Of a DNA stretch of 17,751 nucleotides, positions 1,488 to 17,751 are shown piece by piece (position 1 is the stretch's first letter; each line of letters begins with the position of its first letter). Both the position numbers and the translations under genes were made by a program. The DNA is from an uncultured Oscillospiraceae bacterium (lineage in GTDB: Bacteria > Bacillota > Clostridia > Oscillospirales > Acutalibacteraceae): the NCBI GenBank assembly GCA_900552985.1, contig USBP01000007.1, positions 1 to 17,751 of the forward strand, written 5' to 3'. A model generated the notes under the pieces. It was not told the origin of the DNA. It worked only from the letters and a program-made list of their open reading frames with translations, and searched no databases.

Positions 1488-1488
1488 A

Positions 1489-1517
1489 TTGAAAATCAGA
1501 GCAGAATGTGTTATAAT
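1489..1517 (+). promoter_or_regulatory. Sigma-A promoter of scfA
   Basis: TTGAAA at 1489-1494 and TATAAT at 1512-1517 are separated by exactly 17 bases, and TGT precedes the -10 box, making it an extended -10 promoter. Transcription should start near 1524, with AGGAGG at 1538-1543 and the scfA start at 1552. This is the best promoter in the window and implies strong vegetative expression. Confidence 0.85.
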
Positions 1518-1551
1518 TTTACCATTATCAGATGATGAGGAGGATTCTGTG

Positions 1552-1689: not shown

Positions 1690-1712
1690 GGGCTTTCAAT
1701 CAAATCGGCTTC

Positions 1713-1745
1713 AAATGAAGGGGCAGGGGACTGTCCCTTCATTTT
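1713..1745 (+). terminator. Hairpin (partial terminator) between scfA and scfB
   Basis: AAATGAAGGG (1713-1722) and CCCTTCATTT (1735-1744) form a perfect 10-bp stem with a 12-base loop, ending in only four T's. This fits a leaky terminator or an mRNA-stabilising 3' hairpin that would give more scfA than scfB transcript. A TTGACA at 1763-1768 lies downstream, but no -10 box is found at the right distance, so scfB probably depends on read-through from the scfA promoter. Confidence 0.6.
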
Positions 1746-1806
1746 CCGTATAAATAAAAAAGTTGACAAGCGCTGTAATACGGAAGGCGGAAAGGAACAC
1801 ACGAAC

Positions 1807-3186: not shown

Positions 3187-3216
3187 TTTTGTAATCTCAA
3201 CGTAAATTAATAAAGT

Positions 3217-3270
3217 AAAGCCACCATATTCCTTCTGCTGAAAAAGGAGAAAAGGAATATGGTGGCTTTT
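3217..3270 (+). terminator. Strong intrinsic terminator of scfAB
   Basis: A perfect 18-bp stem (3217-3234 with 3252-3269) encloses a 17-base loop, and its 3' side runs into TTTT ATT. The stem core is CCACCATATTCC. It starts 31 bases after the scfB stop codon, so it ends the scfAB transcript. The 5' side is preceded by an A-rich stretch, so it could also act weakly on the other strand. Confidence 0.85.
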
Positions 3271-3300
3271 ATTGAGAATGCAAATTATCCCGGGGAATGG

Positions 3301-3329
3301 TTCTATTCCACGGATCTGCACCATAGGAT
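3301..3329 (+). promoter_or_regulatory. Possible sigma-E type promoter of spoIIM
   Basis: TTCTATT (3301-3307) and CATAGGAT (3322-3329), 14 bases apart, resemble the Bacillus subtilis sigma-E boxes (KMATATT and CATACANT): 5 of 7 and 6 of 8 bases fit. B. subtilis spoIIM is a mother-cell sigma-E gene, so such a promoter is expected here. No sigma-A promoter is evident. The match is imperfect and tentative. Confidence 0.35.
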
Positions 3330-3365
3330 GGCTCTAGAGGATATGTGTAAAAAGGAGGATGCTAA

Positions 3366-4013
3366 ATGGGGACAAGACATATGCATCTGCGGGAAGCGCA
3401 ACCACTTCCTGGAGGAATCTTGGCAGAGCGAATCCTATCCGGCTGGAAACTGATTTTATTGACCGCATTTTTTACTGCTGGCATGGCCTTTGGCGCGGTA
3501 CTGGTGAAAAGCAGCGCTGACCATGAATGGCTTGAAAAGCTGCTGGATCTGTTGCAGGAATACAGTCTACTTCGCAGCACGCAGTCTCTCTTCGCTACCA
3601 TATGCAATTCAATGCTGGCAAACATGCTCTATTTGGCCGGCGCTTTCGCAGCAGGGCTTTGTGCAATTGGCCTGCCGCTTCTCATGCTGCTGCCCTTTAT
3701 CCGCGGCCTTGGGCTCGGTGCGGTATTCGGCTATCTCTATAGCGCGCAATCACTTGCCGGAGTGGGCTATTGCCTGTTAATCCTGTTGCCCGGCGCAATT
3801 CTCTCTACTGCTACGCTCCTCATTGGCTGCCGGGAAGGGATCACGATGTCCTTTGATGTTTTTACTGTAATGAACGGTAAAAAAATCCTGGATCATTCCC
3901 ACAGCCTGAGGCTTTATTGTGTCCGTTTTGGCATTCTGCTTGTGTTACTTTTGTGCGCTTCTTTGGCAGATGCGTTATTTGCAAAAGCTTTTTCTGGATT
4001 TTTTCACTTTTGA
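3366..4013 (+). CDS. spoIIM: Stage II sporulation protein M
   Basis: A 215-residue integral membrane protein of the SpoIIM family. In Bacillus subtilis SpoIIM anchors the SpoIIP/SpoIID peptidoglycan hydrolases that drive engulfment of the forespore. A first membrane segment lies at about 27-47 and four more hydrophobic segments follow at roughly 85-110, 105-125, 130-155 and 190-210; the loop-rich middle carries the conserved GLGLGAVFGYL-like stretch of the family near 115-125. The start ATG at 3366 has AAGGAGG 7 bases upstream. The 3' end overlaps the xerD 3' end by 10 bases on the opposite strand. SpoIIM and XerD are also neighbours in B. subtilis, which supports both calls. A sporulation promoter is expected upstream. 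Confidence 0.93.
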   Translation: MGTRHMHLREAQPLPGGILAERILSGWKLILLTAFFTAGMAFGAVLVKSSADHEWLEKLLDLLQEYSLLRSTQSLFATICNSMLANMLYLAGAFAAGLCAIGLPLLMLLPFIRGLGLGAVFGYLYSAQSLAGVGYCLLILLPGAILSTATLLIGCREGITMSFDVFTVMNGKKILDHSHSLRLYCVRFGILLVLLLCASLADALFAKAFSGFFHF

Positions 4014-4999
4014 GGTGTTTGGGAAGGCTTCTGCGCATGAAGCGGGTTTGCATCAATTGCAGCTTTAATCTGATCGTCCATGATATGTGTATAGATTTCT
4101 GTCGTGCCTAAATTTTCGTGGCCTAAAATCTCTTTTAGCACTAAAACATCCACCTTGCCATGCTGATACATCAGTGTAGCGGCCGTATGCCGCAGCTTGT
4201 GCACAGAAAGCCCCTGCCCAGAAAGTCCCGCTTTTTCTAAAAATGTGTATACAATATGCTGCACTGTTTTTGGACTGATCCGCTGTAGCCGGTTGCTCAG
4301 AAAAAGCGCATTTTTATCCCGTACACCGTCTACCGGACGCACCTTCAAATAGGCTCTCAGTGCATCCCGGCAAGCCTGGTTTAGATATAAAATACGCTCC
4401 TTGTCGCCCTTGCCCGTCACGCGGATCGTTTCTTCATCCTGAATGTCGCTCAAATTGAGGCCGACAAGCTCAGAAAGCCGCATCCCACAATTGAGAAAAA
4501 AAGTGATGATACAAAAATCGCGTTCCTTATTTTTACCGTCAATATGATTTAAAAGTGCAATGCTTTGATCCAGAGTGAGATACTTTGGGAGTGTCTTTTT
4601 TTGCTTTGGGGTATCCAACTCCTGCATCGGGTTTTCTTCCAAAAGTTTTTTCTGAAGAGTCAGGTATTTAAAAAATCCTCGAATGCTGGAAACCTTACGG
4701 GAACGGGTTTTCGCACTATTGTGACGTTCATTTTTGCAATATGATAAAAATGCATAAGCATCGCTAATAGACACTGTGCGTACAAAGGCAATGTCTAAAT
4801 CAGTAATATCAATTTGATCAAAGGGTATTGAAACCGGCGCCAGCTTACGCGACATTTTTAAAAAGCGAAAAAAGGTACGAAGATCCATGGCGTATTCCTG
4901 CACCGTCAGCGGGGATTTATTCTTAATCACTTCCAGATACCGTAAAAAATCAGCAACAATAGATGGATACTCTGTATAATCAATGGATCTGTTTGGCAT
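4004..4999 (-). CDS. xerD: Tyrosine recombinase XerC/XerD type
   Basis: A 331-residue tyrosine site-specific recombinase. The N-terminal SAM-like core-binding domain spans about 10-120 and the catalytic domain 140-315. All catalytic residues are visible: R174 (CGMRLSE), K197 (GKGDKE), H267 and R270 (HKLRH), H294 (LGHE) and the nucleophile Y303 (EIYTH). Length is slightly above the usual 295-310, with a Pro/Gln tail of about 15 residues. It most likely resolves chromosome dimers at dif. Position beside spoIIM supports a housekeeping XerD rather than a phage integrase; no attachment repeats or mobile genes are near. The ATG at 4999 has only a weak AGGA two bases upstream and an in-frame stop lies a dozen codons before, so the start is fixed but poorly served by a ribosome site. 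The leader upstream is unusual (see 5080-5192). Confidence 0.92.
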   Translation of the reverse strand: MPNRSIDYTEYPSIVADFLRYLEVIKNKSPLTVQEYAMDLRTFFRFLKMSRKLAPVSIPFDQIDITDLDIAFVRTVSISDAYAFLSYCKNERHNSAKTRSRKVSSIRGFFKYLTLQKKLLEENPMQELDTPKQKKTLPKYLTLDQSIALLNHIDGKNKERDFCIITFFLNCGMRLSELVGLNLSDIQDEETIRVTGKGDKERILYLNQACRDALRAYLKVRPVDGVRDKNALFLSNRLQRISPKTVQHIVYTFLEKAGLSGQGLSVHKLRHTAATLMYQHGKVDVLVLKEILGHENLGTTEIYTHIMDDQIKAAIDANPLHAQKPSQTPQK

Positions 5000-5079
5000 A
5001 GTCCTGCGCTTGGATTTGGGGAATCTATCATATCAAATCGGCTGTATGAATATTGAGGAAAATCCAATTTCCCTCCCCT

Positions 5080-5111
5080 AAATTATACAAAATATTTATT
5101 TTGTATAATTT
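5080..5111. repeat. 32-base near-perfect palindrome in the xerD leader
   Basis: AAATTATACAAAATA (5080-5094) and its exact complement (5097-5111) flank a 2-base centre. Each arm contains TTGTATAAT, so a TATAAT box appears on both strands. It lies about 80 bases upstream of the xerD start and downstream of the likely xerD promoter, so it could be an operator or, in the mRNA, a long AU hairpin. It does not resemble a dif site, whose arms are not symmetric to this degree. Confidence 0.8.
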
Positions 5112-5139
5112 TTTGCCAAATGTTCGCCCCTTCTCCCAA
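5083..5139 (-). CDS. Possible 18-residue leader ORF upstream of xerD
   Basis: A TTG at 5139-5137 starts an 18-codon frame (MGEGANIWQKIIQNKYFV) ending with TAA at 5085-5083. AAGGAGG (5150-5144) lies 4 bases upstream, a little close but strong, and an extended -10 box is 14 bases further. The last ten codons and the stop fall inside the 5080-5111 palindrome, so translating it would open the hairpin. This could be a leader peptide that tunes xerD. There is no homology evidence, and such short frames arise by chance. Confidence 0.3.
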   Translation of the reverse strand: MGEGANIWQKIIQNKYFV

Positions 5140-5163
5140 GCTTCCTCCTTCCAGCTTGTATTC

Positions 5164-5192
5164 ATTATATCATCATTTCTCCCAACGTTCCA
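5164..5192 (-). promoter_or_regulatory. Likely xerD promoter with extended -10
   Basis: On the - strand TGA TATAAT (5172-5164) is an extended -10 box. The -35 at 17-base spacing is TGGAAC (5192-5187), 3 of 6 matches, which an extended -10 can tolerate. Transcription would start near 5157, giving a leader of about 158 bases before xerD that contains the palindrome and small ORF. Confidence 0.5.
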
Positions 5193-5222
5193 GCTGAGTT
5201 TTTACGCCCCTGCGCGGAATGC

Positions 5223-5254
5223 AAAAAAAGTGCCCCGGCATCATACCGGAACAC
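5223..5254 (-). terminator. Intrinsic terminator of the scpA-rluB operon
   Basis: On the - strand GTGTTCCGG (5254-5246) pairs with CCGGGGCAC (5238-5230), a 9-bp stem with two G-U pairs and a 7-base loop, followed by seven T's (5229-5223). It lies 21 bases after the rluB stop and closes the - strand operon. Confidence 0.88.
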
Positions 5255-5274
5255 TCGAAAACAAACAAAACGAT

Positions 5275-6015
5275 TTATGTTTGCAAATCCATTTGAGCTG
5301 CACGCATCAGCTTGTGCACCTCATCCGGTGTCAATTCCCGCCAGTGTCCTGGAGGCAGCATACCAAGCTTGACAGGCCCCACAGCAATCCGCTTTAATCG
5401 CGCTATTTCCAAGCCGAGTGATTCGCACATCTTTCGGATTTGCCTGTTTCTTCCTTCATAAAGGACAATTTCCAACACAACCCTGCCCTCATCCCTGCGC
5501 ACGACATGGACATCAGCGGGCGCCGTCATACGGCCCTCCAGAAGAATGCCAGACGCCATCCGGTTAAGCTGCTCTTCTGTAATATCCGGCCGGACCGTCA
5601 CACGGTAGGTTTTGGAGACATGGCGTTTTGGATGCATCATCGCGTTGGCAAAATCACCATCATTCGTCATCAAAAGAAGCCCCTCTGACTCACGATCCAG
5701 CCTCCCAATCGGATAAACTCGTTTTTCATAATCCTGTACCAGCTCTGCAACGCACTTGCGTTCCATTTCATCGCTCATGGTGGTGATAAACCCACGCGGT
5801 TTATGCAGCATGAGATAACAGAGCGTTTTTTCCCGTATCACCTTTCGGCCATTTACAGCAACGGAGTCCCGCTTGGGATCTATCTTATCGCCTATCTTTG
5901 CTGGAATTCCGTTGACCTTGACACGCCCTTCCTCAATTAGTTGTTCACTTTTCCGGCGTGAGGCGACGCCACATTCCGATAAATATTTTTGCAGCCTGAT
6001 TTTTGCATCAGTCAT
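5275..6015 (-). CDS. rluB: 23S rRNA pseudouridine synthase, RluB/RsuA family
   Basis: A 246-residue rRNA pseudouridine synthase. Residues 6-50 form the S4 RNA-binding domain (RLQKYLSECGVASRRKSE); the synthase domain covers about 65-235. The catalytic Asp is D107 in GRLDRESEG, the family signature, and GRNRQIRKM (about 194-202) is the second conserved motif. The RluB subgroup modifies the 23S rRNA near U2605; the RsuA/RluE relatives cannot be fully excluded, but Firmicutes with this gene order carry RluB. The ATG at 6015 overlaps the carboxypeptidase gene by 8 bases and has AGGAGAG inside it, so translation is coupled. It is the last gene of the operon and is followed by a terminator. In many Clostridia cmk follows rluB; here it does not. 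Confidence 0.92.
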   Translation of the reverse strand: MTDAKIRLQKYLSECGVASRRKSEQLIEEGRVKVNGIPAKIGDKIDPKRDSVAVNGRKVIREKTLCYLMLHKPRGFITTMSDEMERKCVAELVQDYEKRVYPIGRLDRESEGLLLMTNDGDFANAMMHPKRHVSKTYRVTVRPDITEEQLNRMASGILLEGRMTAPADVHVVRRDEGRVVLEIVLYEGRNRQIRKMCESLGLEIARLKRIAVGPVKLGMLPPGHWRELTPDEVHKLMRAAQMDLQT

Positions 6016-7231
6016 TTTGCTTTTCTCTCCTCATAATATGGGTTAAAACCCATTCCTTTATTTTTGCCCAAAAGCCAACCTGTTTCGTCTCCTTGTTTTG
6101 CTCCTGCCGAACTGGAACATTGACATTCTCCACAGCGCGCGCTGTTTCCAACGGTACGCTGGCAATCAGTCGATCCCCCTGATAATAACGGGCCTCCCCT
6201 ACCAGCTGCCCCTGCTCTACAGGCGCATAAACAAAGGGCTCCAGTAAAATTTCCCGACGGATTCCGGTGGGTTGGGAAGAGGCCGGATAGTCCGGTGTAA
6301 TCGCGCATTCCACTGGAACTTGACTGCTTACTCCCCCCACAACGGGCAACTGGAGGTCGGAAAAACTGTCATCCAATTTAATATTTTCGATTATGGAAAA
6401 TCCATAATCGAACAGTTTTTTGTGATCTGCCCAATCGTTTGGCGCATTAAGTGTTACTGCAACAAGCGTTATACCATCGCGCTCAGCGGCTGAGACCAGG
6501 CAGCGGCCGCTTTTTTTAGTGAAGCCCGTCTTGACCCCGATACACCCATCATAAGCGGATAATAGGCGGTTATGATTAGACAAAGTACGCAAGTATTCCG
6601 GATTGCCATAAGCCACACGGATACTTTTTGTAGCGCAAATGGAGGCAAATTCCGGGTTGCGAATTGCCTCTGCGCCCAAGAGAGCCATATCATGCGCGCA
6701 GGAATAATGCTCTTCATGATCCAACCCCGACGGTGTTACGAAATGGGTGTTTGTCATCCCGATTTCTCTGGCTCGTAGGTTCATGCGCTGCGCGAACTGA
6801 TCCACAGAACCGGCAATCGCAATCGCCGTAGCGTTTGCGGCATCATTGCCAGATTCAAGCAACATGCCGTAAACCAGATTGCGCAGTGTGATTCGATCCC
6901 CAGCACGCAGGCCGATCGAAGTACCCTCCACTCGAACCATGGCATCCGTTGCCGTGATAACCCGGTTCGGCGTGCCCTCCTCAATCGCCAGCAGGGAGGT
7001 CATAATCTTCGTTGTGCTTGCCATTCCCCGTTGCTGATACGCGTTTTTTTCAAACAGGAACTCGCCTGTATCGGCAACCAGCAACGCGGCCGATTGAGCC
7101 GACACAGAGGGCGGGCCCTCCGCTCGCACATGTACACCGGCGTAAAGTAAAAAAAGCCCGCACAATAAAAACAGAGCCAAATATTTATAACTCCAGATTT
7201 GCTTTTTCTTTTGATTGAACAAAGCCACCAC
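6008..7231 (-). CDS. dacB: D-alanyl-D-alanine carboxypeptidase (PBP5-type)
   Basis: A 407-residue penicillin-binding protein that trims the terminal D-Ala from peptidoglycan stem peptides. The N-terminus has a Lys-rich start and a hydrophobic signal segment at about 17-33. The serine peptidase S11 motifs are complete: SxxK at S72-K75 (STTK), SGN at 127-129 and KTG at 234-236. The PBP5 C-terminal beta domain covers about 290-375, and a basic amphipathic C-terminal tail (FWAKIKEWVLTHIMRR) probably binds the membrane. Placement between gerW and rluB matches B. subtilis dacB, a sporulation cortex enzyme, though dacF is similar, so the symbol rests on synteny. No ATG start exists: GTG at 7231 is the longest option but lies in a hairpin stem; TTG at 7222, with AGGTGG before it, is an alternative. 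The 3' end overlaps rluB by 8 bases. Confidence 0.93.
   Translation of the reverse strand: MVALFNQKKKQIWSYKYLALFLLCGLFLLYAGVHVRAEGPPSVSAQSAALLVADTGEFLFEKNAYQQRGMASTTKIMTSLLAIEEGTPNRVITATDAMVRVEGTSIGLRAGDRITLRNLVYGMLLESGNDAANATAIAIAGSVDQFAQRMNLRAREIGMTNTHFVTPSGLDHEEHYSCAHDMALLGAEAIRNPEFASICATKSIRVAYGNPEYLRTLSNHNRLLSAYDGCIGVKTGFTKKSGRCLVSAAERDGITLVAVTLNAPNDWADHKKLFDYGFSIIENIKLDDSFSDLQLPVVGGVSSQVPVECAITPDYPASSQPTGIRREILLEPFVYAPVEQGQLVGEARYYQGDRLIASVPLETARAVENVNVPVRQEQNKETKQVGFWAKIKEWVLTHIMRREKQND
6361..6420. repeat. Nested inverted repeats inside the carboxypeptidase gene
   Basis: TTCGATTATGG (6386-6396) and CCATAATCGAA (6402-6412) form an 11-bp hairpin with a 5-base loop. Outer arms AAAAACTGT (6361-6369) and ACAGTTTTT (6412-6420) pair as well. 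On the + strand, antisense to the gene, the hairpin ends in CAGTTTTTTG, resembling a terminator. The protein reads straight through (DYGFSIIENIK). It may be chance or an mRNA structure. Confidence 0.5.
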
Positions 7232-7263
7232 CTGCCATGGTTTATACGTATGCAGGCGGTGGC
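7224..7263 (-). promoter_or_regulatory. Hairpin at the carboxypeptidase translation start
   Basis: On the - strand GCCACCGCCTGC (7263-7252) pairs with GCAGGTGGTGGC (7235-7224): 12 bp with a single G-U, which would be a mismatch on the + strand, so it is an RNA structure for - strand transcripts. Its 3' arm holds the GTG start (7231) and is followed by TTTGTTC. It could be a weak terminator of the upstream operon, or it could mask the start of the carboxypeptidase. The 100 bases between gerW and this gene hold nothing else I can support. Confidence 0.55.
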
Positions 7264-7332
7264 AAAAAAATCAATTCATTTTTGAAAAGCTACGGGCATA
7301 AATGCGTACGTTAACCCTCATCTGAAAAAATG

Positions 7333-7770
7333 TTATTTTGTCTCTTGTTCAGAAACAGGCGGAGCAGTCTCCTCCCCCTGGTCGGCCTGCGCTTCTTTTT
7401 TCTTTATGGTCTTGTTAACAACACTGGTCACCTTATCAAACATCTCAGGCACCAGGTTCACAACACGCTCTGCCGCATTATCATATGCCGTAATATGCTT
7501 AAGCGTAACCTCGCCGTCGCTGACAATGAGGAAAGCGACCGGCGTAATCGTCACGCCTGCTCCGCCGCCGCCGCCGAAAAGCTGCGCATTCGTCTTCGAC
7601 GGAAAGTCTGAGCCTCCGGAGGCAAAGCCATACGTCACCTTGGAGATTGGGATAATGGTAATTCCGCCTTCCAGATACATCGGATCGCCGATAATTGTGC
7701 TTACATCGACAAGATCACGAATTTTCTCAATTGTCGTACCCAGGATCCCTGCTGCTGACTGTTCTTTCAT
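7333..7770 (-). CDS. ytfJ: GerW (YtfJ) family spore protein
   Basis: A 145-residue protein of the YtfJ/GerW sporulation family. The core, about 10-120, has the family features: IGDPMYLEGGITIIPISKVTYGF (split by turns) and a glycine run FGGGGGAG near 65-72 before a hydrophobic strand (VTITPVAFLIV). The C-terminus from about 120 is charged and Glu/Gln-rich. In Bacillus subtilis GerW is made in the forespore and is needed for a normal germination response; the molecular activity is unknown. The ATG at 7770 overlaps the DUF2953 stop as ATGA, so translation is coupled. The gene order DUF2953-gerW is common in Clostridia. Confidence 0.92.
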   Translation of the reverse strand: MKEQSAAGILGTTIEKIRDLVDVSTIIGDPMYLEGGITIIPISKVTYGFASGGSDFPSKTNAQLFGGGGGAGVTITPVAFLIVSDGEVTLKHITAYDNAAERVVNLVPEMFDKVTSVVNKTIKKKEAQADQGEETAPPVSEQETK

Positions 7771-8468
7771 GAAGAAGCACCACCTTGTTTTATTTCAATT
7801 CTATTTTCATTGCTTTTATCTGGTTTGGAAAAAAGCAGTTTGAAAACAACCTGGAACAAAAGCTTTACCACCATAGCAACCGCTGCGTTAGTCACAAAAA
7901 TCGGACGCAGTGTGAGCACTGCGTGCAGCTCTGTTTCACTCTGATTTGCTAAAAAATCCGGGGAAATATCCACATCATATTTTTTGACCTTCATGACAGA
8001 GCATATAGCGCCCAATGCAGGAAAAACCTCCGTGCAAACCTTGCCATAGTCGATTGCGGTCTGTGCCGCATCCCCGGAACCAATATACATTTGCAAATAG
8101 AACTTGTCAAGAATGATATGCCGAAAAACGCTGCGGAACATACCGGAGAGAATTGACGCAGTTTTTTTCAGCAAGGCTATGACGCCATCTATTCCCTCGT
8201 TATTCCAAAATGTTGCCAGCGGGTTCTGCTTCGAACCTCCCTTTTTCTTCTGAGAGGTATCTTTTGGAGGTTGTTCCGAAGCAGGAGCCGGCTTCTCTGT
8301 TTTTGGCTTTTTTTCCTTCTGCTCCCAAGGTAGGAGCTTAAATTTCAGGAATAAGTAGCGGATCTCCAACTCTACAACATCGTGATAATCCAACTGAACC
8401 GTCAACCGGAAGCTAAACGCCAGTATAATCAGCGCGATAATCGCAAGCAGAATATACAGGACAATCAT
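7767..8468 (-). CDS. DUF2953 domain membrane-anchored protein
   Basis: A 233-residue protein matching the DUF2953 family (YtfI-like) by its N-terminal membrane helix (1-20), the following RYLFLKFKLLP stretch and a Lys/Pro-rich linker (about 50-85). The second half (about 95-215) is the conserved domain, with YIGSGDAAQTAIDYGK near 126-142 and a hydrophobic stretch near 195-215. In Firmicutes this family is almost always next to gerW, as here, and is presumed to act with it in sporulation, but no activity is known. The ATG overlaps the scpB stop by 4 bases; GGAGGCGGGTGT precedes it. Confidence 0.82.
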   Translation of the reverse strand: MIVLYILLAIIALIILAFSFRLTVQLDYHDVVELEIRYLFLKFKLLPWEQKEKKPKTEKPAPASEQPPKDTSQKKKGGSKQNPLATFWNNEGIDGVIALLKKTASILSGMFRSVFRHIILDKFYLQMYIGSGDAAQTAIDYGKVCTEVFPALGAICSVMKVKKYDVDISPDFLANQSETELHAVLTLRPIFVTNAAVAMVVKLLFQVVFKLLFSKPDKSNENRIEIKQGGASS

Positions 8469-9052
8469 ACACCCGCCTCCTCTTCTGTAAGTGATGTGCG
8501 TGAAACACCGGCATGGGCCTCCTCCTGCTGTTCTGCTGCCTGACGGTCAGGCAGCGGCGGAAGCTCTTCCAGAGAGGAAAAGCTGAAGCACCGCAGAAAC
8601 TCAGCGGTCGTACCATACAAAAGCGGCCGGCCAGGGAGCTCTAGCCTCCCCTTTTCTTCCAAAAGACCTTTCTGACAAAGGGTATTGACAACGCCGGAAC
8701 AATCTACCCCACGCACCTGCTCCACAAAGGACTTTGTAACAGGCTGGTTATAAGCAATGACCGCCAGCACCTCAAAAGCCGCCTGAGAAAGCGGTGCGTT
8801 GCGCTTGATTTCCAGTGCCTGCCGAATACTGGGCGCAAACTCTGTGCGTGTGCACAGCTGATACCGGTTGCCCAAGCGCAGTAAACATAAACCGCTCCCC
8901 CGTTCATCAAGCTGGGCTTCTAAATTCTTTAAAATCTGCTCCATCAGCCCTTCGTTAATCTCCAGCGCTTGTGCCAGGCGAGACAGCTCCAAGGGCTCGC
9001 CAGAAGCAAACAGCACTGCCTCAGCGGCCGCCTGTATTTGCTTTGCGTTCAA
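8465..9052 (-). CDS. scpB: Segregation and condensation protein B
   Basis: A 195-residue ScpB, the winged-helix partner that binds as a dimer to the kleisin ScpA in the SMC-ScpAB condensin. Two winged-helix units cover about 5-80 and 85-160. The conserved ALEIKRNAPLSQAAFEVLAVIAYNQPVTK region (split here) is at about 79-107, with RGVDCSGVVNTL and GRPLLYGTT following. The last 30 residues are acidic and low-complexity. The start is TTG at 9052, overlapping the scpA stop as TTGA with GGGGAGG 10 bases upstream, so it is coupled to scpA. Length is typical. Confidence 0.95.
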   Translation of the reverse strand: MNAKQIQAAAEAVLFASGEPLELSRLAQALEINEGLMEQILKNLEAQLDERGSGLCLLRLGNRYQLCTRTEFAPSIRQALEIKRNAPLSQAAFEVLAVIAYNQPVTKSFVEQVRGVDCSGVVNTLCQKGLLEEKGRLELPGRPLLYGTTAEFLRCFSFSSLEELPPLPDRQAAEQQEEAHAGVSRTSLTEEEAGV

Positions 9053-9801
9053 GAATGATTCGCCTCCCCTGCCTGAAAAGCTTTAGATTGCTTTAGGGCA
9101 TCCCGCACCAAAACGACTTGCGAGGCATCGCCCTCCCCTTCGACAAGGATTCGTTTCGCCTTGATGAGCTCCAACATGGCCAGAAAGGTAGCCACCATAT
9201 CGGAACGAGAGGGAGCAACCTCAAAAAACGAGCCAAGCCTCTGCCTTTGGCCGCGAATGAGCCTGCGCAGAATAAAGGATACTTTAGAGCCAACAGACAC
9301 AATTTTATGAGATACGATCGCCGTAAAGGAATCAACGGGAGGCGGCAGCTTGCGCCTGCCTTTTCCCACTGCGGAAAGATAGGCACGTAAAAGCTCCTCG
9401 GGTTCATGCAGCCGCGTATAAGTTGGATCCGCCTCAAAAACCTGCGGTTCCCGTACGTAATGGTCAAAACCGGATGTACGTTCAGCCAGCTTCTGCGCCA
9501 TAAGCTGACAATCCCGATATTCCAGGAGTTCGCCGGTAAGTTCCTTTTTGAGCTGCTCCGCCTCCTCATGCACTGGTAAGAGAGACACGGTTTTGATATA
9601 TACAAGACGCGCAGCCATCTCCAAAAATTCACTGGCGACGTCCATATCCTCATTCTGCATCTGGCGGACAGCGTCGATATACTGCTCGACAAGCTCTAAA
9701 ATTGGAATATCATAAATATTCAGCTTATGCTTGCTGATGAGATGAAGCAGCAAATCCATCGGGCCTTCAAACACAGGAAGCTTATAAGAAATTTTTTCCA
9801 T
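9049..9801 (-). CDS. scpA: Segregation and condensation protein A
   Basis: A 250-residue kleisin, the subunit that bridges SMC heads in bacterial condensin. The N-terminal signature YKLPVFEGPMDLLLHLISKHKLNIYDIPI (split here) spans about 6-35; ISKHKLNIYDI and YIDAVRQMQ are typical. The C-terminal winged-helix region, about 165-245, has the conserved FLAMLELIKAKRI segment near 208-221 that contacts the SMC head. ATG at 9801 has AGGAGAGGA just upstream. It is second in the operon, 13 bases after the M50 protease gene and overlapping scpB by 4. Confidence 0.96.
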   Translation of the reverse strand: MEKISYKLPVFEGPMDLLLHLISKHKLNIYDIPILELVEQYIDAVRQMQNEDMDVASEFLEMAARLVYIKTVSLLPVHEEAEQLKKELTGELLEYRDCQLMAQKLAERTSGFDHYVREPQVFEADPTYTRLHEPEELLRAYLSAVGKGRRKLPPPVDSFTAIVSHKIVSVGSKVSFILRRLIRGQRQRLGSFFEVAPSRSDMVATFLAMLELIKAKRILVEGEGDASQVVLVRDALKQSKAFQAGEANHS

Positions 9802-9814
9802 TTAATCCTCTCCT

Positions 9815-10489
9815 TTAGCGGAAAGGCAGGAAAGGGAGCCCTGCTATAAAGGCAAGCCCTTTTAACACCAGCGAGCTTAAAAAATTCAACGGCCAGCTGA
9901 GCACACCAAAAAACAAAAGGGCAAGAACCACGATCATGATAATCCGCTCGTATTGCATGACCTTGTAATAAATACGGTCAGGCAGTACCAAGCCAAGAAT
10001 ACGGGAGCCATCCAGCGGCGGGATCGGCAGCAGGTTAAAAACAGCAAGGTTTACATTGATCACAGCTGCCAGCTGGAAAAACACCGACGCTATGAGAAGA
10101 ATATGATTGCCGGCGGTATAAAAAAGGCCCAGCAGATTATAGACGATCAGAAATAGAAACGCCATCAACAGATTGGACAACGGGCCCGCCACAGCCGTCA
10201 GGGCCATATCCCGCTTCGGATTCCGGAAATTGCGCATGTTGACCGGCACAGGCTTTGCATAGCCAAAGCCCAACAGCAGAATCATCAGCGCACCGATCGG
10301 GTCAATATGCGCCATTGGGTTAAGCGTCAGTCTGCCGCTCAAGCGCGCCGTGTTATCTCCCAAGCGGGTAGCCGTCCATGCGTGGGCATATTCGTGAATT
10401 GGGAGCGTGCAAAAAACAACGAAGATAGAAACGCACACGCCGATCATCGTGCTCGTCCAGTCACCGCTGCGAAGGTAGCTCAGTATCAT
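9815..10489 (-). CDS. Site-2 protease family (M50) membrane zinc metalloprotease
   Basis: A 224-residue polytopic membrane protein of peptidase family M50. The zinc motif HExxH is HEYAH at H32-H36 in the first long hydrophobic segment; the third ligand motif is FNLLPIPPLDG (151-161) with D160. About five to six membrane segments are seen. The protein lacks a PDZ domain and fits the small YwhC-like group found upstream of scpA in many Clostridia; its natural substrate is not known. The ATG at 10489 has AGAGG 9 bases upstream. It leads the scpA operon and has its own weak promoter candidate. Confidence 0.9.
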   Translation of the reverse strand: MILSYLRSGDWTSTMIGVCVSIFVVFCTLPIHEYAHAWTATRLGDNTARLSGRLTLNPMAHIDPIGALMILLLGFGYAKPVPVNMRNFRNPKRDMALTAVAGPLSNLLMAFLFLIVYNLLGLFYTAGNHILLIASVFFQLAAVINVNLAVFNLLPIPPLDGSRILGLVLPDRIYYKVMQYERIIMIVVLALLFFGVLSWPLNFLSSLVLKGLAFIAGLPFLPFR

Positions 10490-10527
10490 GTGTTCAACCT
10501 CTCAAATTGGAAAATGATTTATTACTA

Positions 10528-10556
10528 AGCGTAGCTTAAAAAAAGAAGTGCGTCAA
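10528..10556 (-). promoter_or_regulatory. Possible promoter of the M50-scpAB operon
   Basis: On the - strand TTGACG (10556-10551) and TACGCT (10533-10528) are exactly 17 bases apart. The -35 matches 5 of 6, the -10 only 3 of 6. The start of transcription would be near 10521, 32 bases before the M50 ATG. There is no clear terminator after prmC (10575), so read-through from the upstream chain is also possible. Confidence 0.45.
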
Positions 10557-10574
10557 CGGATAAAATGTAAATTT

Positions 10575-11429
10575 TTATTCAAATGATTTCCAGCCTGCTA
10601 CAATTCGCGGGATTCCGCGATAATCCTTCAAAATCTGTGTTTGAATGTGTTGGGGCAGAAAAAGGAATTCAATTTTTTCTGCCTGCGATTCTCCACATTC
10701 CACCGCAATGAAACCGCCAGGCTTTAAAAAGGGCAGCCACTGCCGCGCCAACGCTCTGTAAAACAGCAGCCCATCCTCCCCTCCATCCAAGGCCATATGC
10801 GGCTCCCGCAGCACCTCGCGCTGTAAGCTCGCAATTTCAGCCGACGCAACATAAGGCGGATTGGAAACAATCACATGTGGAGCGGGAAGATGGGAGGATG
10901 CAAACCCCTCCAACACATCCCCCAGGCCCCAATGCGCATTATGCAAAGCTAGATGCGCCCCATTCTGGCAAAGATACGCATACGCCTCCGGAGACTTCTC
11001 CAGCAGATAGACCTGCGCATCCGGCCTGCGCTTTGCGATGCTAAGGCCAATACACCCGCTGCCTGCACAGAGATCCAAAATAACTGGCTTTTCCAGCTGC
11101 GCAGTCAGGCGCAGCACCGTTTGTGCCAGCAGCTCGGTTTCAGGCCTCGGGATCAATACGCCGGGGCCAACTTGATAGCTCTCATCGAGAAACGGCCATT
11201 CTCCCAGCAAATATTGGAGTGGCTCCCCAGCAGCCCTGCAGCGCACCAGCGCCAGAAAGCGATCCATCTCTTCCTTTGCAGGCTCCTCTCCGCCATGCAG
11301 AGCAAGAGCTGATCGATCCATGCCAAATGCTTTCTCCATCAGGCAACGCGCGTCAAAGGGGGCGTCCGGATTATCCGCCAGCCGAAGCGCTGCCACAGCC
11401 TCTTGATAGAGGGCACGGTAGGTAGTCAA
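10575..11429 (-). CDS. prmC: Peptide chain release factor N5-glutamine methyltransferase
   Basis: A 284-residue PrmC (HemK), which methylates the glutamine of the GGQ motif in release factors RF1/RF2 using SAM. The N-terminal helical substrate-binding domain covers 1-75. The SAM-binding loop is DLCAGSGCIGLSIA at 119-132 and the catalytic NPPY is at 190-193; VLIPRPETE (91-99) is the family motif. Length is typical. The start is TTG at 11429 within a TTGA overlap with the DUF1385 stop, preceded by GGAGG 10 bases upstream. In many Clostridia prfA follows prmC; here it does not, and the next gene is the M50 protease. Confidence 0.95.
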   Translation of the reverse strand: MTTYRALYQEAVAALRLADNPDAPFDARCLMEKAFGMDRSALALHGGEEPAKEEMDRFLALVRCRAAGEPLQYLLGEWPFLDESYQVGPGVLIPRPETELLAQTVLRLTAQLEKPVILDLCAGSGCIGLSIAKRRPDAQVYLLEKSPEAYAYLCQNGAHLALHNAHWGLGDVLEGFASSHLPAPHVIVSNPPYVASAEIASLQREVLREPHMALDGGEDGLLFYRALARQWLPFLKPGGFIAVECGESQAEKIEFLFLPQHIQTQILKDYRGIPRIVAGWKSFE

Positions 11430-12415
11430 ATTGCGTCATCCTCCGGATTATCCGTAATAACTGCCTGAAAAGCTGTAATGCCTACCTCAATCATACTGTC
11501 ATCGGGCTCTGCGGTTGTTAACCGCTGCATCCAAAGCCCGGGCGCAGAAAGGACTTTGGTCAGCCAATTCTCATGCCGCCCGGCATAGCGGATAAACTCA
11601 TAGCCAAAGCCCATGGTAACCGGCAGCGTCAAAATTTTAATACACATCCACAGTATCCGGTTTTCCGGATTTCCAAGCGCGGGGAACAAAAAAATCAATA
11701 GGGAAGAAACCAATATGCTGATAATCAAAATAACAAAGATAAAGCTGGTGCCGCAGCGAGGATGAAACCTGCTTTGCTTACGCACATTTTCCACTGTCAG
11801 TTCCTCGCCATGCTCGTAGCAGAAAATCGTCTTATGTTCCGCGCCATGATAACGAAAAACACGCTTAATATCCTTCATCCGGGACACCAGCGCAATATAT
11901 GCGATAAAAATTACAATACGCATCGCACCCTCAATCAAGCCCTTTAAGGCGAGCAGGCCGCCCTTTGTCAATGCATTCAGGCCGTCAAAAATGAGGGCGG
12001 GCAGGTAAAAAAAGAGCGCAAAGGCGAGCAGGAGGCCCAGCACCATTGCCACGGCAGAGATGACGCCCATCAGCTTTGGCCCAAAATGATCGGAAATCCA
12101 GCGGTCGAGCTTGGACATTTCCTCCTCCTCTGCCCCCTCCGTATCCAGGCCGGATTTCTCCGCAGATTCCATCAGGCATTTGTAGCCAAGGATCATGGAT
12201 TCCACAAAGCTGACCACACCGCGTATAATCGGCCATCCAAGGAATTTGATTTTATCTTTTATCTGTTTAAAATCCTTATATTCCGTATCGATAGAACCAT
12301 CCGGCAACCGGACAGACATCGCAGCGCCTCTCGGCCCGCGCATCATAATCCCCTCAATCAGAGCCTGCCCTCCCACAGAGGTTTTGTGCGGGGCTTTCTT
12401 TTGTTCCTCACTCAT
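11426..12415 (-). CDS. DUF1385 (YqhQ-like) membrane protein
   Basis: A 329-residue integral membrane protein of family DUF1385. The N-terminal signature GGQALIEGIMMRGP is at about 14-28. Membrane segments are at roughly 115-135, 140-155, 160-175 and 222-243. The conserved YHGAEHK (189-195) and CYEHGEELT, then RFHPRCGTSF, are typical and include His/Cys residues that could bind metal. The function is unknown; the family is paired with prmC and rpmE in many Firmicutes. ATG at 12415 has AAAGGAG 8 bases before it, inside the kinase 3' end (8-base overlap). Confidence 0.9.
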   Translation of the reverse strand: MSEEQKKAPHKTSVGGQALIEGIMMRGPRGAAMSVRLPDGSIDTEYKDFKQIKDKIKFLGWPIIRGVVSFVESMILGYKCLMESAEKSGLDTEGAEEEEMSKLDRWISDHFGPKLMGVISAVAMVLGLLLAFALFFYLPALIFDGLNALTKGGLLALKGLIEGAMRIVIFIAYIALVSRMKDIKRVFRYHGAEHKTIFCYEHGEELTVENVRKQSRFHPRCGTSFIFVILIISILVSSLLIFLFPALGNPENRILWMCIKILTLPVTMGFGYEFIRYAGRHENWLTKVLSAPGLWMQRLTTAEPDDSMIEVGITAFQAVITDNPEDDAI

Positions 12416-13847
12416 TGTATGAACTCCTTTCGTCAGGCAGAGAGACCGGTTCGATTGGTAAAGTGACTGAAACCGTCGTTCCCTCCCCCACTATGCTGTT
12501 GATTTTTAAAGTACCATGGTGCAGCCTGATGATCTCATCCACTACGGCAAGACCGATGCCGGATCCACGGGCCGACACGCTGGAGCGATAAAATTTCTCC
12601 GTTACATGGGGCAGGTCCGCCTCGGGAATACCGCATCCAGTGTCGCCCACCATGATTTCCAGCGTAGCTTGCACGATATTGGCGACCACAATCACCCGGC
12701 CACCCTGTTCAGTATATTTGAAAGCATTATCCAGAATATTGACAAATACCTGCTTGATCCGGTTGGCATCCCCGTTCATCGGCGCAGGCAGATGGGGCGC
12801 GTTGTAAATCAACTCGATCCCCTCCCGCAGAGCGCGCTCCCGAAACACAAAAACGGCATCGTCCAGCTCTGCGAGCACATCAATTTTTTCCAGGCACATG
12901 CTGAGTTTCCCATTTTGCATGCGTGAAAAATCCAACAGCTCTTCCACGATCCCCGTCAGCCGGGAGGATTCGTCAATAATAACCTGCATCCCCTTGGAAA
13001 GCAGCGTAGGATCTGTATCCCCTACCTGCAACAGGGTTTCCCCCCAGCCTTTAATAGCAGTCAGAGGGGTGCGAAGCTCGTGCGAAATAGTGGAAATAAA
13101 ATCATTTTTAACGCGGTCAGCCTCGCTCAGCTCAGAGGCCATATAGTTAATGGTTTCTCCCAGCTCACTGATCTCGTCGTTATAGCGTGAGCTGTCAATC
13201 CGGCTGCTGAAATCCCCATGCGCAAATTTTCTGGCCGCGTCGTTGATCTGCATCACTGGTTTGACAATCGACTGAATGAAGAAAGAACCGGACAAGGCCA
13301 CCAGCGCGATGGCCAGCAGGCACACAAAAAAGATCAGCAGGATAAAGGTAGCAATCTGATTGTCCACATCCTCCAGCGAGATCAAATACCGGACGGCGCC
13401 GCTGTCATCCCCCAGCAGCTGTGTCAGCGCCATTACCTTCTCTCCCGACGGAAGTTTACCAATCCAACGGGCCGTATCGCTTGTTGCCCCCGGCTCGATT
13501 GCCTGCTCATAATCCGGCATTTCCGGCTGTGTATCGACCGGAAAGCCGCTGGAGGATAGAATCACATTCCCATGCCGGTCGATCACCCAAACCTCCATCA
13601 TATCTTTCGCTTTAAAATTTTCAATAAATTCACGGGCACGGCTTTCGAACTGCTCGTCTGTATTGTTATAAAGGCTGAAGAAGGTGGAAACAGAATCATC
13701 TGCACGGGAATTTAGCGTCATTTCAACATATTCATAGTAGTAAAAATGGATCGAAAACGAGGCGATAATAGATACCAAAAGAAGCAGGGCTGAAATCGTC
13801 CCCAGCGTGTTTAAAATCCATCGTTTTGTAATCCCGTTGAAATGCAC
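12408..13847 (-). CDS. HAMP sensor histidine kinase
   Basis: A membrane histidine kinase of the PhoR/ResE type. From the longer frame (ATG at 13874), membrane segments are at about 24-44 and 175-200 with a 130-residue extracellular sensor between them, HAMP at about 200-252, HisKA with the phospho-acceptor H265 (STISHELRTP), N-box N379/N383, G1 DTGCGIP (411-417) and G2 GSGIGLA (437-443). I place the start at GTG 13847 (479 residues), because AAAGGAGG (13865-13858) lies inside the longer frame and 10 bases before that GTG, while the ATG has no ribosome site. The partner regulator gene ends 39 bases upstream, so they form a two-component pair. The ligand is unknown; the upstream lipoprotein is a possible partner. 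Confidence 0.9.
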   Translation of the reverse strand: MHFNGITKRWILNTLGTISALLLLVSIIASFSIHFYYYEYVEMTLNSRADDSVSTFFSLYNNTDEQFESRAREFIENFKAKDMMEVWVIDRHGNVILSSSGFPVDTQPEMPDYEQAIEPGATSDTARWIGKLPSGEKVMALTQLLGDDSGAVRYLISLEDVDNQIATFILLIFFVCLLAIALVALSGSFFIQSIVKPVMQINDAARKFAHGDFSSRIDSSRYNDEISELGETINYMASELSEADRVKNDFISTISHELRTPLTAIKGWGETLLQVGDTDPTLLSKGMQVIIDESSRLTGIVEELLDFSRMQNGKLSMCLEKIDVLAELDDAVFVFRERALREGIELIYNAPHLPAPMNGDANRIKQVFVNILDNAFKYTEQGGRVIVVANIVQATLEIMVGDTGCGIPEADLPHVTEKFYRSSVSARGSGIGLAVVDEIIRLHHGTLKINSIVGEGTTVSVTLPIEPVSLPDERSSYNE

Positions 13848-13886
13848 GCTTATTCCGCCTCCTTTCTTACGCATGGGCAGACCTAT

Positions 13887-14591
13887 TTAAATGACCCACT
13901 TGTATCCAATCCCCCAAATCGTCACCAAATGCTTGGGGTTAGAGGGTTCATCCTCAATCTTCATTCGGAGCCGCCGGATATTGACATCAACAATTTTTTC
14001 CTCACCAAAATAAGAATCTCCCCATACACGGTTAAGGATATCCGTTCTGTCCAAAGCGGCGCCCGGGTTTTGAAAAAAATACTCCATGATTTGAAATTCC
14101 ACCTGCGTCAAATCGATCAAAACGCCTTTTTTGGTCAGCGTCCGATTACGGGAATTCAGCACGAATTCACCCAATTCAATCGTGTCTTCCTGCGCCTTGT
14201 CAGCCGAAGACGCCTTGCTCATCATGACGCGCCGGTAGATCGCATCGACCCGTGCCATCAGCTCTGAAGGGGAGAAAGGCTTGGTTACATAGTCGTCGGC
14301 GCCGACCAGCAGGCCGGTCACCTTATCCATCTCCTGTGTGCGTGCGGTCAACATAATGATCCCCAAAAGGGGGCTGCGCGCACGAAGCTGCTTGCAGCAC
14401 TCCAGGCCGTCCATCTGCGGCATCATGATATCCAGCAGCGCTACGTCAATATCTCCGTTGCGTTCATCATAAATCTTCAAAGCTTCCATTCCATCGCCAG
14501 CCTCAAGCACCTCATAGCCGCTGCGGCGCAGGTTGATTACAATAAAATCACGGATGGAGATCTCGTCTTCTGCGACAAGTACAGTCTTCAT
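13887..14591 (-). CDS. OmpR/PhoB-type response regulator
   Basis: A 234-residue two-domain response regulator. The receiver (1-115) has the acidic pair E8-D9, phospho-acceptor D54 (LLDIMMPQMDG) and the DYVTKPF lysine near 103. The winged-helix DNA-binding domain (about 135-232) includes DILNRVWGDSYFGEEKIVDVNIRRLR (split) and ends in IWGIGYKWVI, a typical OmpR-family close. The start at 14591 (MKTVLVAEDE) is chosen because the strong GAGGAGGA lies 9-10 bases upstream and receiver domains begin there; the longer frame from 14624 would run into the lipoprotein gene. The gene is immediately followed by its kinase. DNA targets are unknown, and self-regulation of this operon is possible but not shown. 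Confidence 0.92.
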   Translation of the reverse strand: MKTVLVAEDEISIRDFIVINLRRSGYEVLEAGDGMEALKIYDERNGDIDVALLDIMMPQMDGLECCKQLRARSPLLGIIMLTARTQEMDKVTGLLVGADDYVTKPFSPSELMARVDAIYRRVMMSKASSADKAQEDTIELGEFVLNSRNRTLTKKGVLIDLTQVEFQIMEYFFQNPGAALDRTDILNRVWGDSYFGEEKIVDVNIRRLRMKIEDEPSNPKHLVTIWGIGYKWVI

Positions 14592-14616
14592 TTCGCCATA
14601 TCCTCCTCCTCTACGA

Positions 14617-16041
14617 TCACTCAATGATGGAAATGCTGGATTCTAATAAATCAAAATGAATATCATACGCTGAAGCGGCGTTTAATAACCGCCCAACATA
14701 AACGACGCTGTCGTTTCTCTTGAGCAACGTGTAATCAGCAAGGGGATTTTTCTCCCACTGATCTGCTGGAAGCGTCATAATCGCAAACAACTCGTCGCCA
14801 ATTTGTCCGCCCTCCCGAGCAAAAAAGGACCACTGCCGCTCGTTCTGATTGCTGATGATCGTCACCCGTGGCTCCTCGTTCTCGCCAATCCATTCCTCCG
14901 GATAGTAGAACAGGTATCCATCGGAATAGTTGATGGCGCTGTACGCGACCACCTTTGTCTCCTGTGGACCGCTGCCCTGAAATTGCAGCCATTTGGTCAG
15001 ATAGAGCTGCTGTGTAACACTGCTTGCCGCCTGCCCCTTTGAGGCGTTTGCCGCATTTTCTGAGAGCTCCTCTGATGCAGTGTAGCCGCTGTCCGGCAAT
15101 ATGCTCTGCACCGGTATTTCGATAATCGCATCGTTATTAATATCGTTAGAGGCAATCGCTTCATAACGCAGCGTCGCAACATTCGCTCCCTTTTGTTCCT
15201 CATACAGAGGCGCAATCAAGCGCTTGGCTCTGCTATCCCAATAGACAATCTCCGTAATCATAGAAGAGGCCCCTGCATTTGCATCTATATAAATTCTAAC
15301 AGGGCTTTGGGTGCCGAGCTTTTCAGATTTCAAAGAAACATAGTTGGAAGTTCTGGGGTCGAGCGCCACCTCACCAGCTACCGTAACAACATTTTTCACC
15401 ATTTTAAGCAGCTTACCGGACATTCCCCGCCCCGGTTCAGCTGTATCCTGTGCAAGCACAAACACTTCTTCACACCCGTCGGCATCCATATCAACCGGCA
15501 GCATCGCTGTAAAGGCCTCGCGTGCAAGCGTATTAATGTAAGGCCCATTTTCAGACTCTGTATATTGATAAATCGTCAGCATTTTACTACCCTGGCTGCC
15601 AAACAGACGCCATCCCACAATCAGCTCGGCCTTCTCATCATCATTCATATCGGCAAAGTAGACGGAATAGATCTCGCTGCCCTCGCCTGGGAAATCATAG
15701 TGAAACGTCCATTTTCCATTTTCACTATCCATAAAATGAATTCGGACAGTCGATTGATCCTTGTTTTCCGTATAAAAAACAAGCGCCTCTTCCTCCCCGT
15801 CATGATCCATGTCATACAAGATAAACGAGGAATGATACTCCCCCGTGCTGGGAGTTTTGAGCAAAAAATTCTTCCCAACAGCATCCTCAAATGCATCCTG
15901 TACCTCTTCATTGCCGCCTGCCAGTTTTGGAGGCCGCAGCAGGTTCGGCAGGGAGGTAAAGCGCAATGAGCATCCGCTAAACAGGAAAAGAAATGCAAGG
16001 GCCAGCGCCATGCAGGCATACAGTTGTTTTCTCATTTTCAA
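14617..16041 (-). CDS. Lipoprotein with repeated Asp-rich (FG-GAP/VCBS-like) motifs
   Basis: A secreted lipoprotein of about 474 residues, not recognised as a named family. A hydrophobic signal segment ends in a lipobox LFSGC (lipidated Cys at 24), so it should sit on the outer face of the membrane. Four acidic motifs recur: DMDHDG (77-82), DMNDDEKAE (131-139), DMDADG (184-189) and DINNDAIIEIP (about 300-310), each followed by E-A/L-hydrophobic strands as in VCBS/FG-GAP beta-propeller blades that bind calcium. The C-terminal third (about 340-474) lacks these. I chose TTG at 16041: AAGGAGGG (16058-16051) lies 9 bases upstream; ATG at 16035 is the alternative. It lies between cdaR and the response regulator in the same direction, suggesting a role with the two-component system. 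That link is inference. Confidence 0.7.
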   Translation of the reverse strand: MKMRKQLYACMALALAFLFLFSGCSLRFTSLPNLLRPPKLAGGNEEVQDAFEDAVGKNFLLKTPSTGEYHSSFILYDMDHDGEEEALVFYTENKDQSTVRIHFMDSENGKWTFHYDFPGEGSEIYSVYFADMNDDEKAELIVGWRLFGSQGSKMLTIYQYTESENGPYINTLAREAFTAMLPVDMDADGCEEVFVLAQDTAEPGRGMSGKLLKMVKNVVTVAGEVALDPRTSNYVSLKSEKLGTQSPVRIYIDANAGASSMITEIVYWDSRAKRLIAPLYEEQKGANVATLRYEAIASNDINNDAIIEIPVQSILPDSGYTASEELSENAANASKGQAASSVTQQLYLTKWLQFQGSGPQETKVVAYSAINYSDGYLFYYPEEWIGENEEPRVTIISNQNERQWSFFAREGGQIGDELFAIMTLPADQWEKNPLADYTLLKRNDSVVYVGRLLNAASAYDIHFDLLESSISIIE

Positions 16042-16099
16042 TGGGCATGCCCCTCCTTCCCTGCGATCCATACTTATCTACTGAAAAAATCCCAGCGAA

Positions 16100-17401
16100 T
16101 CAGCCGCTTTTTGCTGTAATCTGAACCGGAACCTGATAGGTATGATAGGCCCAACAATCGTTTAGCCCCCTGACATATACCCGCGCCGTAACCTCTTGCC
16201 TTCCCTCCTTGAGGGAAATGGTGCTGAGATCCACCTCGGCATACAGGTTAGAAGCATTCAACTCCGCAATAGACGCACTCGGACCGACAATCGTTACCCC
16301 GTCAATATCCTCCAGGACGGAAATTTCAAACGCATCGGGCACATTCAACAGGGTAATATTGCTTCTCGACACCGTATAGGACGAGGACACCATGTTGCTT
16401 GCATTAATTTCCACTGTAAAGCGGGCAACATCCTTATCAACCACCTTAACCTCCTGGATGGAATCGGCAGAAAAAGTAAAGGTGTTGCGAATGGTGCCAA
16501 TCTCATTAAAATCAATCGTACCAACGGAGAAGGAATCCATCGCATCAATATCGGCCTCTTCCGCGGCCACTGTAACACGAGAAGGCGTAATTGTCGTGGG
16601 AAGGGGATTGTTCACGTAGGCCAACGGGACATTGAGATACGAAACGGTGACAGGCAGTTCCTTCAGCTTCAAAACCCGAATCGTCAAAGTCGCGTTTTCC
16701 TGCCCGTGATTAATTTCCAGATATTGCGGCGTACCGCCATATTCACTGATCGGGACAATCTGCGCTTCCAGCGTGGTGGTTGTCGTCAACGGTTCCGAAA
16801 TAGAGACGCGCGCTACCACACGGCTGATCTTGTTTACCTCCGTCGTAGGGCCGGAAATGGTCACATTGCTAACGGAAGGATAGACAGATTCCTGAATATA
16901 CCCCTCCTCCGGAATGACGCGCTCTGCTACAATATCCGGCTCTAACGGATAAGACGCCTCCTTATACGTATCAAAATAGACCTGTACCTTTGTCTGAGAC
17001 AGGGACATCACGGTAAATTCCGCATCATCGCTGGCCGGCTGAGCCACAAGCGTGACATCATTTTTACCGGAGGAGCTGACATAGCTTAAGTCGGGTGTTA
17101 CCCGAATATCCTCCGGCTCCAGATTGGAAACAATATATCGCTTGCCATAAACAACGACATCCACCTTGTAATCGGTATCGCCGAAAGCCTGAAGCCCCAG
17201 TTGCTCCGGCAGGCTACCGCTCAGACTGAAATCCACAGGAACGTTTTCAACCGTGTAAGATTCCTCCGGGCTCGCTGTCATGGAAATCGCTACCCAGATT
17301 ACAAAAGCCAGCACAATCGAAAACAGGAGCACAAACCGGTTGTTGCTGAAAAGCTCGCGAAAATTTACCGGCATTTTAATTTTCTTTCCCATTTTTTTCA
17401 T
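16100..17401 (-). CDS. cdaR: CdaR (YbbR-domain regulator of c-di-AMP synthase)
   Basis: A 433-residue YbbR-domain protein. A short basic cytoplasmic N-terminus precedes one membrane helix at about 22-42; the rest is extracellular and consists of four YbbR repeats, each beginning with a V-x-V/hydrophobic strand (first at about 50-100, last at about 360-430). CdaR binds and adjusts the diadenylate cyclase CdaA in the cdaA-cdaR-glmM operon. I use ATG 17401 because GGGAGG lies 7 bases before it; the longer start at 17446 would run 71 bases into cdaA. It overlaps the cdaA frame by 26 bases. glmM does not follow; the lipoprotein gene does. Since the adjacent cdaA is broken, whether CdaR has its usual partner is unclear. 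Confidence 0.93.
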   Translation of the reverse strand: MKKMGKKIKMPVNFRELFSNNRFVLLFSIVLAFVIWVAISMTASPEESYTVENVPVDFSLSGSLPEQLGLQAFGDTDYKVDVVVYGKRYIVSNLEPEDIRVTPDLSYVSSSGKNDVTLVAQPASDDAEFTVMSLSQTKVQVYFDTYKEASYPLEPDIVAERVIPEEGYIQESVYPSVSNVTISGPTTEVNKISRVVARVSISEPLTTTTTLEAQIVPISEYGGTPQYLEINHGQENATLTIRVLKLKELPVTVSYLNVPLAYVNNPLPTTITPSRVTVAAEEADIDAMDSFSVGTIDFNEIGTIRNTFTFSADSIQEVKVVDKDVARFTVEINASNMVSSSYTVSRSNITLLNVPDAFEISVLEDIDGVTIVGPSASIAELNASNLYAEVDLSTISLKEGRQEVTARVYVRGLNDCWAYHTYQVPVQITAKSG

Positions 17402-17657
17402 GCTTGATCCTCCCGGCAATGCGCTTAAAGGTGCGGCTGATTTCACCTGGTTCTTCCGGCTGCGAAATCAGATATTTTTGCAGCTTTTCCCGCAGGTCGC
17501 CGTCAGAAATATCCTGTGTCAGCACCCCGTCGTGGGCAATGGAGATGGAGCCCCGTTCTTCTGAAACGACAACGACGATTGCATCGCTCTGCTCGCTCAT
17601 CCCAAGCGCCGCTCGATGGCGAGTGCCCAGCTCGCTGCTGACTGCATTATTTTGTGT
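17376..17657 (-). pseudogene. cdaA: C-terminal remnant of diadenylate cyclase CdaA
   Basis: About 93 residues matching the C-terminal part of CdaA/DisA-type diadenylate cyclase: TQNNAVSSELGTRHRAALG with the conserved LGTRHRA, then SDAIVVVVSEERG. The N-terminal three membrane helices and the DGA catalytic motif that should precede this are absent. Upstream of residue T (about 17657) the frame runs into the cmk promoter and coding strand and no longer resembles CdaA. The open frame on the - strand up to 17744 is antisense to cmk and not real protein. cdaR follows in the normal order, so an intact cdaA-cdaR pair existed. The cut may be a genuine rearrangement that abolishes the enzyme or a chimeric assembly join. 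Confidence 0.8.
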
Positions 17658-17663
17658 TATAAT
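17655..17663 (+). promoter_or_regulatory. Extended -10 box upstream of cmk
   Basis: TGT TATAAT (17655-17663) forms an extended -10 for the + strand, the same TGTTATAAT core as at scfA. A -35 would lie near 17635-17640 (CTGCTG), which is poor and lies within the cdaA remnant. It is therefore possible that the natural -35 of cmk was lost when this junction was made. Confidence 0.45.
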
Positions 17664-17697
17664 AAAAATGACGACATTTTTTGAGGAGGAATCCACT

Positions 17698-17751
17698 ATG
17701 ATTCGCATTGCCATCGACGGTCCGTCCAGCGCAGGAAAAAGCACGGTCGCA
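17698..17751 (+). CDS. cmk: Cytidylate kinase (5' end only)
   Basis: The ATG at 17698 begins MIRIAIDGPSSAGKSTVA, the classic start of cytidylate kinase, with the Walker A loop GPSSAGKST at residues 8-16. GAGGAGGA lies about 7 bases upstream. The gene runs out of the window after 18 codons. Cmk phosphorylates CMP and dCMP. In many Clostridia it follows rluB; here it is far from rluB and on the other strand, next to the broken cdaA. Confidence 0.88.
   Translation, partial: MIRIAIDGPSSAGKSTVA

Follow-up and report, generated by a model that had tools for sequence, protein, structure and literature searches.

An apparent cdaA truncation beside a foreign-looking cmk start in an uncultured Oscillospiraceae bacterium most likely reflects a chimeric join

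The window analysed here is the whole 17,751-nucleotide stretch of contig USBP01000007.1 (assembly GCA_900552985.1), assigned to an uncultured Oscillospiraceae bacterium. Its right-hand end carries an intact cdaR, the 3′ part of cdaA and, on the opposite strand, the beginning of a cmk gene, in the following arrangement:

16100–17401, minus strand: cdaR, intact, encoding a YbbR-domain regulator (Pfam YbbR; start set from P0001, 433 residues)

17376–17659, minus strand: 3′ third of cdaA, RHR motif present, DGA motif and membrane helices absent (Pfam DAC, TIGR00159; collinear with the intact cdaA of loci L001 and L002)

17655–17663, no strand assigned: breakpoint zone, where homology to the relatives' cdaA fades; overlaps an extended −10-like element (blastn ends; MAFFT alignment of the window, L001 and L002)

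17660–17751, plus strand: foreign-looking tail, a leader with GAGGAGG followed by the first 18 codons of cmk, running off the window (cmk profile matches; unlike same-genus cmk; poor match to the expected cdaA)

The minus-strand open frame 17376–17750 matches the Pfam DAC profile at positions 70–118 of 119 only and the TIGR00159 (CdaA) model at 182–250 of 254 only, the latter below the model's whole-protein cut-off. Compared with the 312-residue CdaA of L001, the fragment begins at approximately residue 216, losing DGGA (residue 196) and keeping RHR (residue 228); a full DAC domain with both motifs is lacking, as are the N-terminal membrane helices. What is left overlaps the start of cdaR and so lies directly before it, an arrangement identical to that of L001. 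Resemblance to the CdaA (DacA) diadenylate cyclase of the cdaA–cdaR operon is confined to a C-terminal, RHR-bearing DAC sequence ahead of and overlapping cdaR, whereas only residues ~216–312 (L001 numbering) are retained. A passage of PMC8573169 assigns the DGA and RHR motifs a role in ligand binding and, judged from these roles, a DAC piece devoid of DGA should not work. The neighbouring CdaR is 91% identical to the L001-encoded protein and 99% identical to P0001.

On the plus strand, a Shine–Dalgarno sequence (GAGGAGG, 17683–17689) precedes an ATG at 17698, from which the cmk frame reads MIRIAIDGPSSAGKSTVA up to the window end, with 18 codons visible. When translation is begun at the in-frame ATG at 17668, the resulting 28 residues match the TIGR00017 cmk N terminus (E = 4.7e-5) and Pfam Cytidylate_kin (E = 5.6e-4), scores that fall far below and below the respective curated cut-offs, with only 15–17 positions present. 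The best match of the same 28 residues to solved structures is the cytidylate kinase 1q3t (E = 0.0048), which confirms the cmk identity and names no donor. Set ungapped against the expected orthologous stretch of cdaA, the 92-nt tail agrees at 27 of 92 positions, which is about chance. The tail is absent from both same-genus genomes, G001 and G002, where the best match (E = 0.039) lies at the cdaA end of the query.

The transition between the two pieces is abrupt. Homology to the relatives' cdaA stops in blastn at 17659 (L001, L004 and L077) or 17657 (L002), in agreement with a preliminary description of this DNA that had the CdaA-like sequence end at about 17657. That description had also read the remnant as the RHR-bearing C-terminal third of CdaA alone, with membrane helices and DGA catalytic motif missing, and had seen it meet an extended −10 box and a cmk start on the opposite strand; profile coverage, the comparison with L001 and the positions of the box and ATG bear out each of these points. 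The extended −10-like element (TGtTATAAT, plus strand, 17655–17663) stands by itself: the promoter scan finds no full −35/−10 pair on the plus strand here, and its minus-strand result is a single weak pair that spans the join (9/12, with a mean of 0.2 in shuffles). A lone −10 would fit a leader severed from its −35 by the join. A 33-base string across the join occurs in none of the stretches in the genome contig collection, a weak test given that the collection contains one genome per species.

A CdaR profile search returned 44 loci in the genome collection, the nearest being L001 (from a metagenome-assembled genome; CdaR 91% identical) and L002 (Ruminococcaceae bacterium UBA1691; 79%). These belong to G001 and G002, respectively, the two listed genomes of one genus. 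In G001, L075 and L077/L001 lie on one contig, which is collinear with window positions 63–17659 at 82–84% DNA identity, apart from one 70-base unaligned gap (window 5204–5273); L002 aligns from 7547 to 17657 at 75%. The window thus keeps the gene order of the genus up to the breakpoint. When the sequence leading up to the join is divided into 92-nt blocks (190 in all), identity to G001 never drops below 53% (median 84%), the lowest values falling at 3216 and 5148–5331; these lowest values and the median are the same with or without merging of overlapping alignments. At the exact breakpoint the locus is intact in both close relatives, with L001 and L002 running through into the rest of cdaA (MAFFT, blastn). 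The L001 cdaA is a full 312-residue gene, preceded by genes other than cmk, which we take from their translations to be a class-V-aminotransferase-like gene, ispF and ispD.

Several features lie elsewhere in the window. A SCIFF six-cysteine ranthipeptide precursor (1555–1689, plus strand; TIGR03973, E = 5.5e-24) is followed by its radical SAM maturase (1807–3186, plus strand; TIGR03974, E = 3e-213), a common pair in Clostridia. Between a tyrosine recombinase gene and an rluB-like gene, a 31-base stretch (5081–5111) also matches G001 in inverted orientation (93.5%) and could thus form an imperfect palindrome, possibly acting as a terminator. A large lipoprotein-like protein with an FG-GAP-like repeat (14617–16071, minus strand) is encoded between cdaR and a two-component pair and has a counterpart in L001. 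Rfam and tRNA scans of the whole window return nothing.

The cmk start differs from that of the genus. A single cmk match is present in G001 and in G002, in both cases on a contig other than that of cdaA, and their Cmk proteins start MVN[VI]AIDGPAGAGKST, whereas the window Cmk starts MIRIAIDGPSSAGKST. Over the 54 nt of the cmk start, the window agrees with G001 and G002 at 35 and 37 positions, respectively, compared with 45 of 54 between G001 and G002. These differences argue strongly against the tail being the genus's own cmk moved to this place.

For a wider comparison of cmk we used 58 fetched loci, which are best-scoring or best-matching rows rather than a random sample and come from 57 genomes (L070 and L095 are the same G011 gene); the family Cmk search matched in 115 of 120 genomes, 30 of which supplied loci. 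The window shares the N-terminal P-loop IAIDGPxxxGKST with (d)CMP kinase (TIGR00017) but has SSA before GKS, a triplet found in 0/58 loci, where AGA (44), SGA (10), AAA (2), AGS (1) and GGA (1) are used instead. Surroundings differ too: the window copy has its own leader, and the relatives' cmk sits just behind an oxidoreductase gene, as in the oxidoreductase–cmk–plsC–ispH/rpsA run of G001 (gene names read from translations). The oxidoreductase motif lies just upstream of cmk in 43/58 loci, made up of 42/45 near and family loci and 1/13 from the phylum search; L069, L094 and L099 scored without it, L094 having been tested at a stray second match, so that 43 may be 44. That stray match, at minus-strand position 925 of L094 (G087), is a second copy of a Cmk start (MISIAIDGPAGAGKSS) located ~580 bases ahead of the genuine cmk; it continues into an unrelated, stop-containing frame and may be a duplication or a further small chimera. 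Read by eye, the tables place cdaA and cmk together on one contig in 7 of 120 family genomes, the nearest pair ~23 kb apart; in the remainder they lie on different contigs or one of the two is not found.

Searches for a donor of the tail were extended outwards at the DNA level. None emerged from 300 family genomes (79 match at E ≤ 0.01, the best at 83% over 54 bases) or from 398 phylum genomes (13 at E ≤ 1e-5, the best at 87% over 46 bases). Among the matches listed, the majority fall on the conserved cmk start; a few are limited to the A/T-rich leader (query 1 or 2 to ~26), and some include parts of both. An exact 24-mer of the cmk leader has no occurrence in viral contigs, and phages and plasmids give one and two weak records, respectively, covering at most 51% of the 112-base query. 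As these searches gave no donor, a foreign origin of the tail is suggested by its unlikeness to the cmk of the genus.

We next consider the enzyme complement that a real break would affect. In all four nearest genomes (G001–G004) the only DAC gene is cdaA, with one match each, and a real break in it should therefore be costly. A single DAC match is present in 114 of 120 family genomes; G114 has two partial ones, each on its own contig, and the other five genomes, which may be incomplete, have none. Of the G114 pieces (C178:2–184 and C7:3629–3820), the first starts at contig base 2, which looks like an assembly break in cdaA; in G088 the single match is partial (C131:3448–3582). A passage of PMC13289029 describes c-di-AMP as an essential second messenger in many gram-positive bacteria, a status that we would extend to the organism of the window. 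The preliminary description had allowed that another copy or DisA covers the role; with one DAC match per genome in the four relatives and in 114 of the 120 family genomes, this is not favoured.

Taken together, we consider the join at 17655–17663 most likely to be chimeric, and the truncated cdaA an artefact and not a gene loss. The window would be a stretch of a Ruminococcaceae-like bacterium whose own cdaA, presumably intact in the species, continued normally past 17659, and the assembled sequence would switch at 17655–17663 to DNA of another organism, comprising the leader and start of its cmk. A few shared bases probably bridged the switch, with ...TTTTGTGTTA of the cdaA complement passing into TGTTATAAT of the leader; it could have arisen in a read or amplicon that was itself chimeric, or through an assembly error. 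What is directly observed is an intact cdaA in relatives, an abrupt loss of homology and a cmk start unlike that of the genus; that the switch is technical, how it arose and that the tail comes from another organism are what we infer from these. Two unrelated loci joined at a short overlap also resemble the chimeric reads and contigs of multiple displacement amplification (MDA). One passage of PMC2731171 gives approximately one chimera per 10 kb for MDA single-cell libraries, with chimeric reads linking distant regions; it describes a few contigs that were misjoined through such reads and names annotation as a means of recognising them. The join here may be of this or another kind of chimera.

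Some points speak against a chimera. A 74-residue truncated protein, P0179, taken to be the window's own product, is 100% identical over its length and is credited to a contig of 135,051 bases and to a two-sequence cluster; the join may accordingly be internal to a long contig and may have been observed on two occasions. Among the 120 listed of 3,004 matches, P0179 alone is 100% identical, the next (P0067) reaching 89%. The lack of a donor among the 300 family and 398 phylum genomes counts in the same direction, as does the short length of cmk in view (18 codons).

A real transfer or rearrangement, both taken together, is unlikely. The better-surviving form, itself unlikely, has a cmk region from another lineage enter the cdaA locus by insertion or recombination, at the cost of the 5′ two thirds of the gene, with c-di-AMP made by another enzyme or dispensed with. 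Besides the contig and cluster to which P0179 is attributed, it can draw on a Pusillibacter record that annotates cmk under a weak tail match, which shows that a large replicon catalogued as a plasmid can carry cmk. Like the other hits to the tail among phages and plasmids, however, this match is weak, and the position of cdaA as sole DAC match in the nearest genomes and most of the family weighs against its loss. On the side of the join that can be seen, the open reading frame list has no recombinase close by; the opposite side is in view for just 92 bases.

Rearrangement within one genome, putting the organism's own cmk beside a broken cdaA, is very improbable. The pieces do face each other head to head, an orientation that an inversion could produce, and G001 and G002 have one cmk and one cdaA match each; the window cmk start nevertheless departs from both same-genus genes in codons, P-loop residues and upstream sequence, while the rest of the window is 75–84% identical to the same two genomes. 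The cmk piece, unlike the genus's own, thus argues against such an event. The preliminary description had offered rearrangement or chimeric assembly as its two readings, of which the chimera is strengthened by the intact, collinear cdaA of two same-genus genomes and the rearrangement is weakened by the cmk piece. Insertion of a mobile element at the join is unsupported, as the only phage-integrase-type gene among eight proteins scanned (4004–4999) is 12.7 kb distant and belongs to a stretch that is collinear with G001.

The chimeric reading chiefly calls for caution. What is probably the sole c-di-AMP synthase seems to be lost here, but this should not be counted as biology, and claims on gene order should leave out the window's last ~100 bases. 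Improbable as it is, a real lineage-specific event, in which foreign cmk-bearing DNA recombined into cdaA, would leave a naturally c-di-AMP-deficient or compensated organism that keeps cdaR, although its family generally has no diadenylate cyclase besides cdaA. If real, the join would be a natural test of whether such bacteria live without c-di-AMP.
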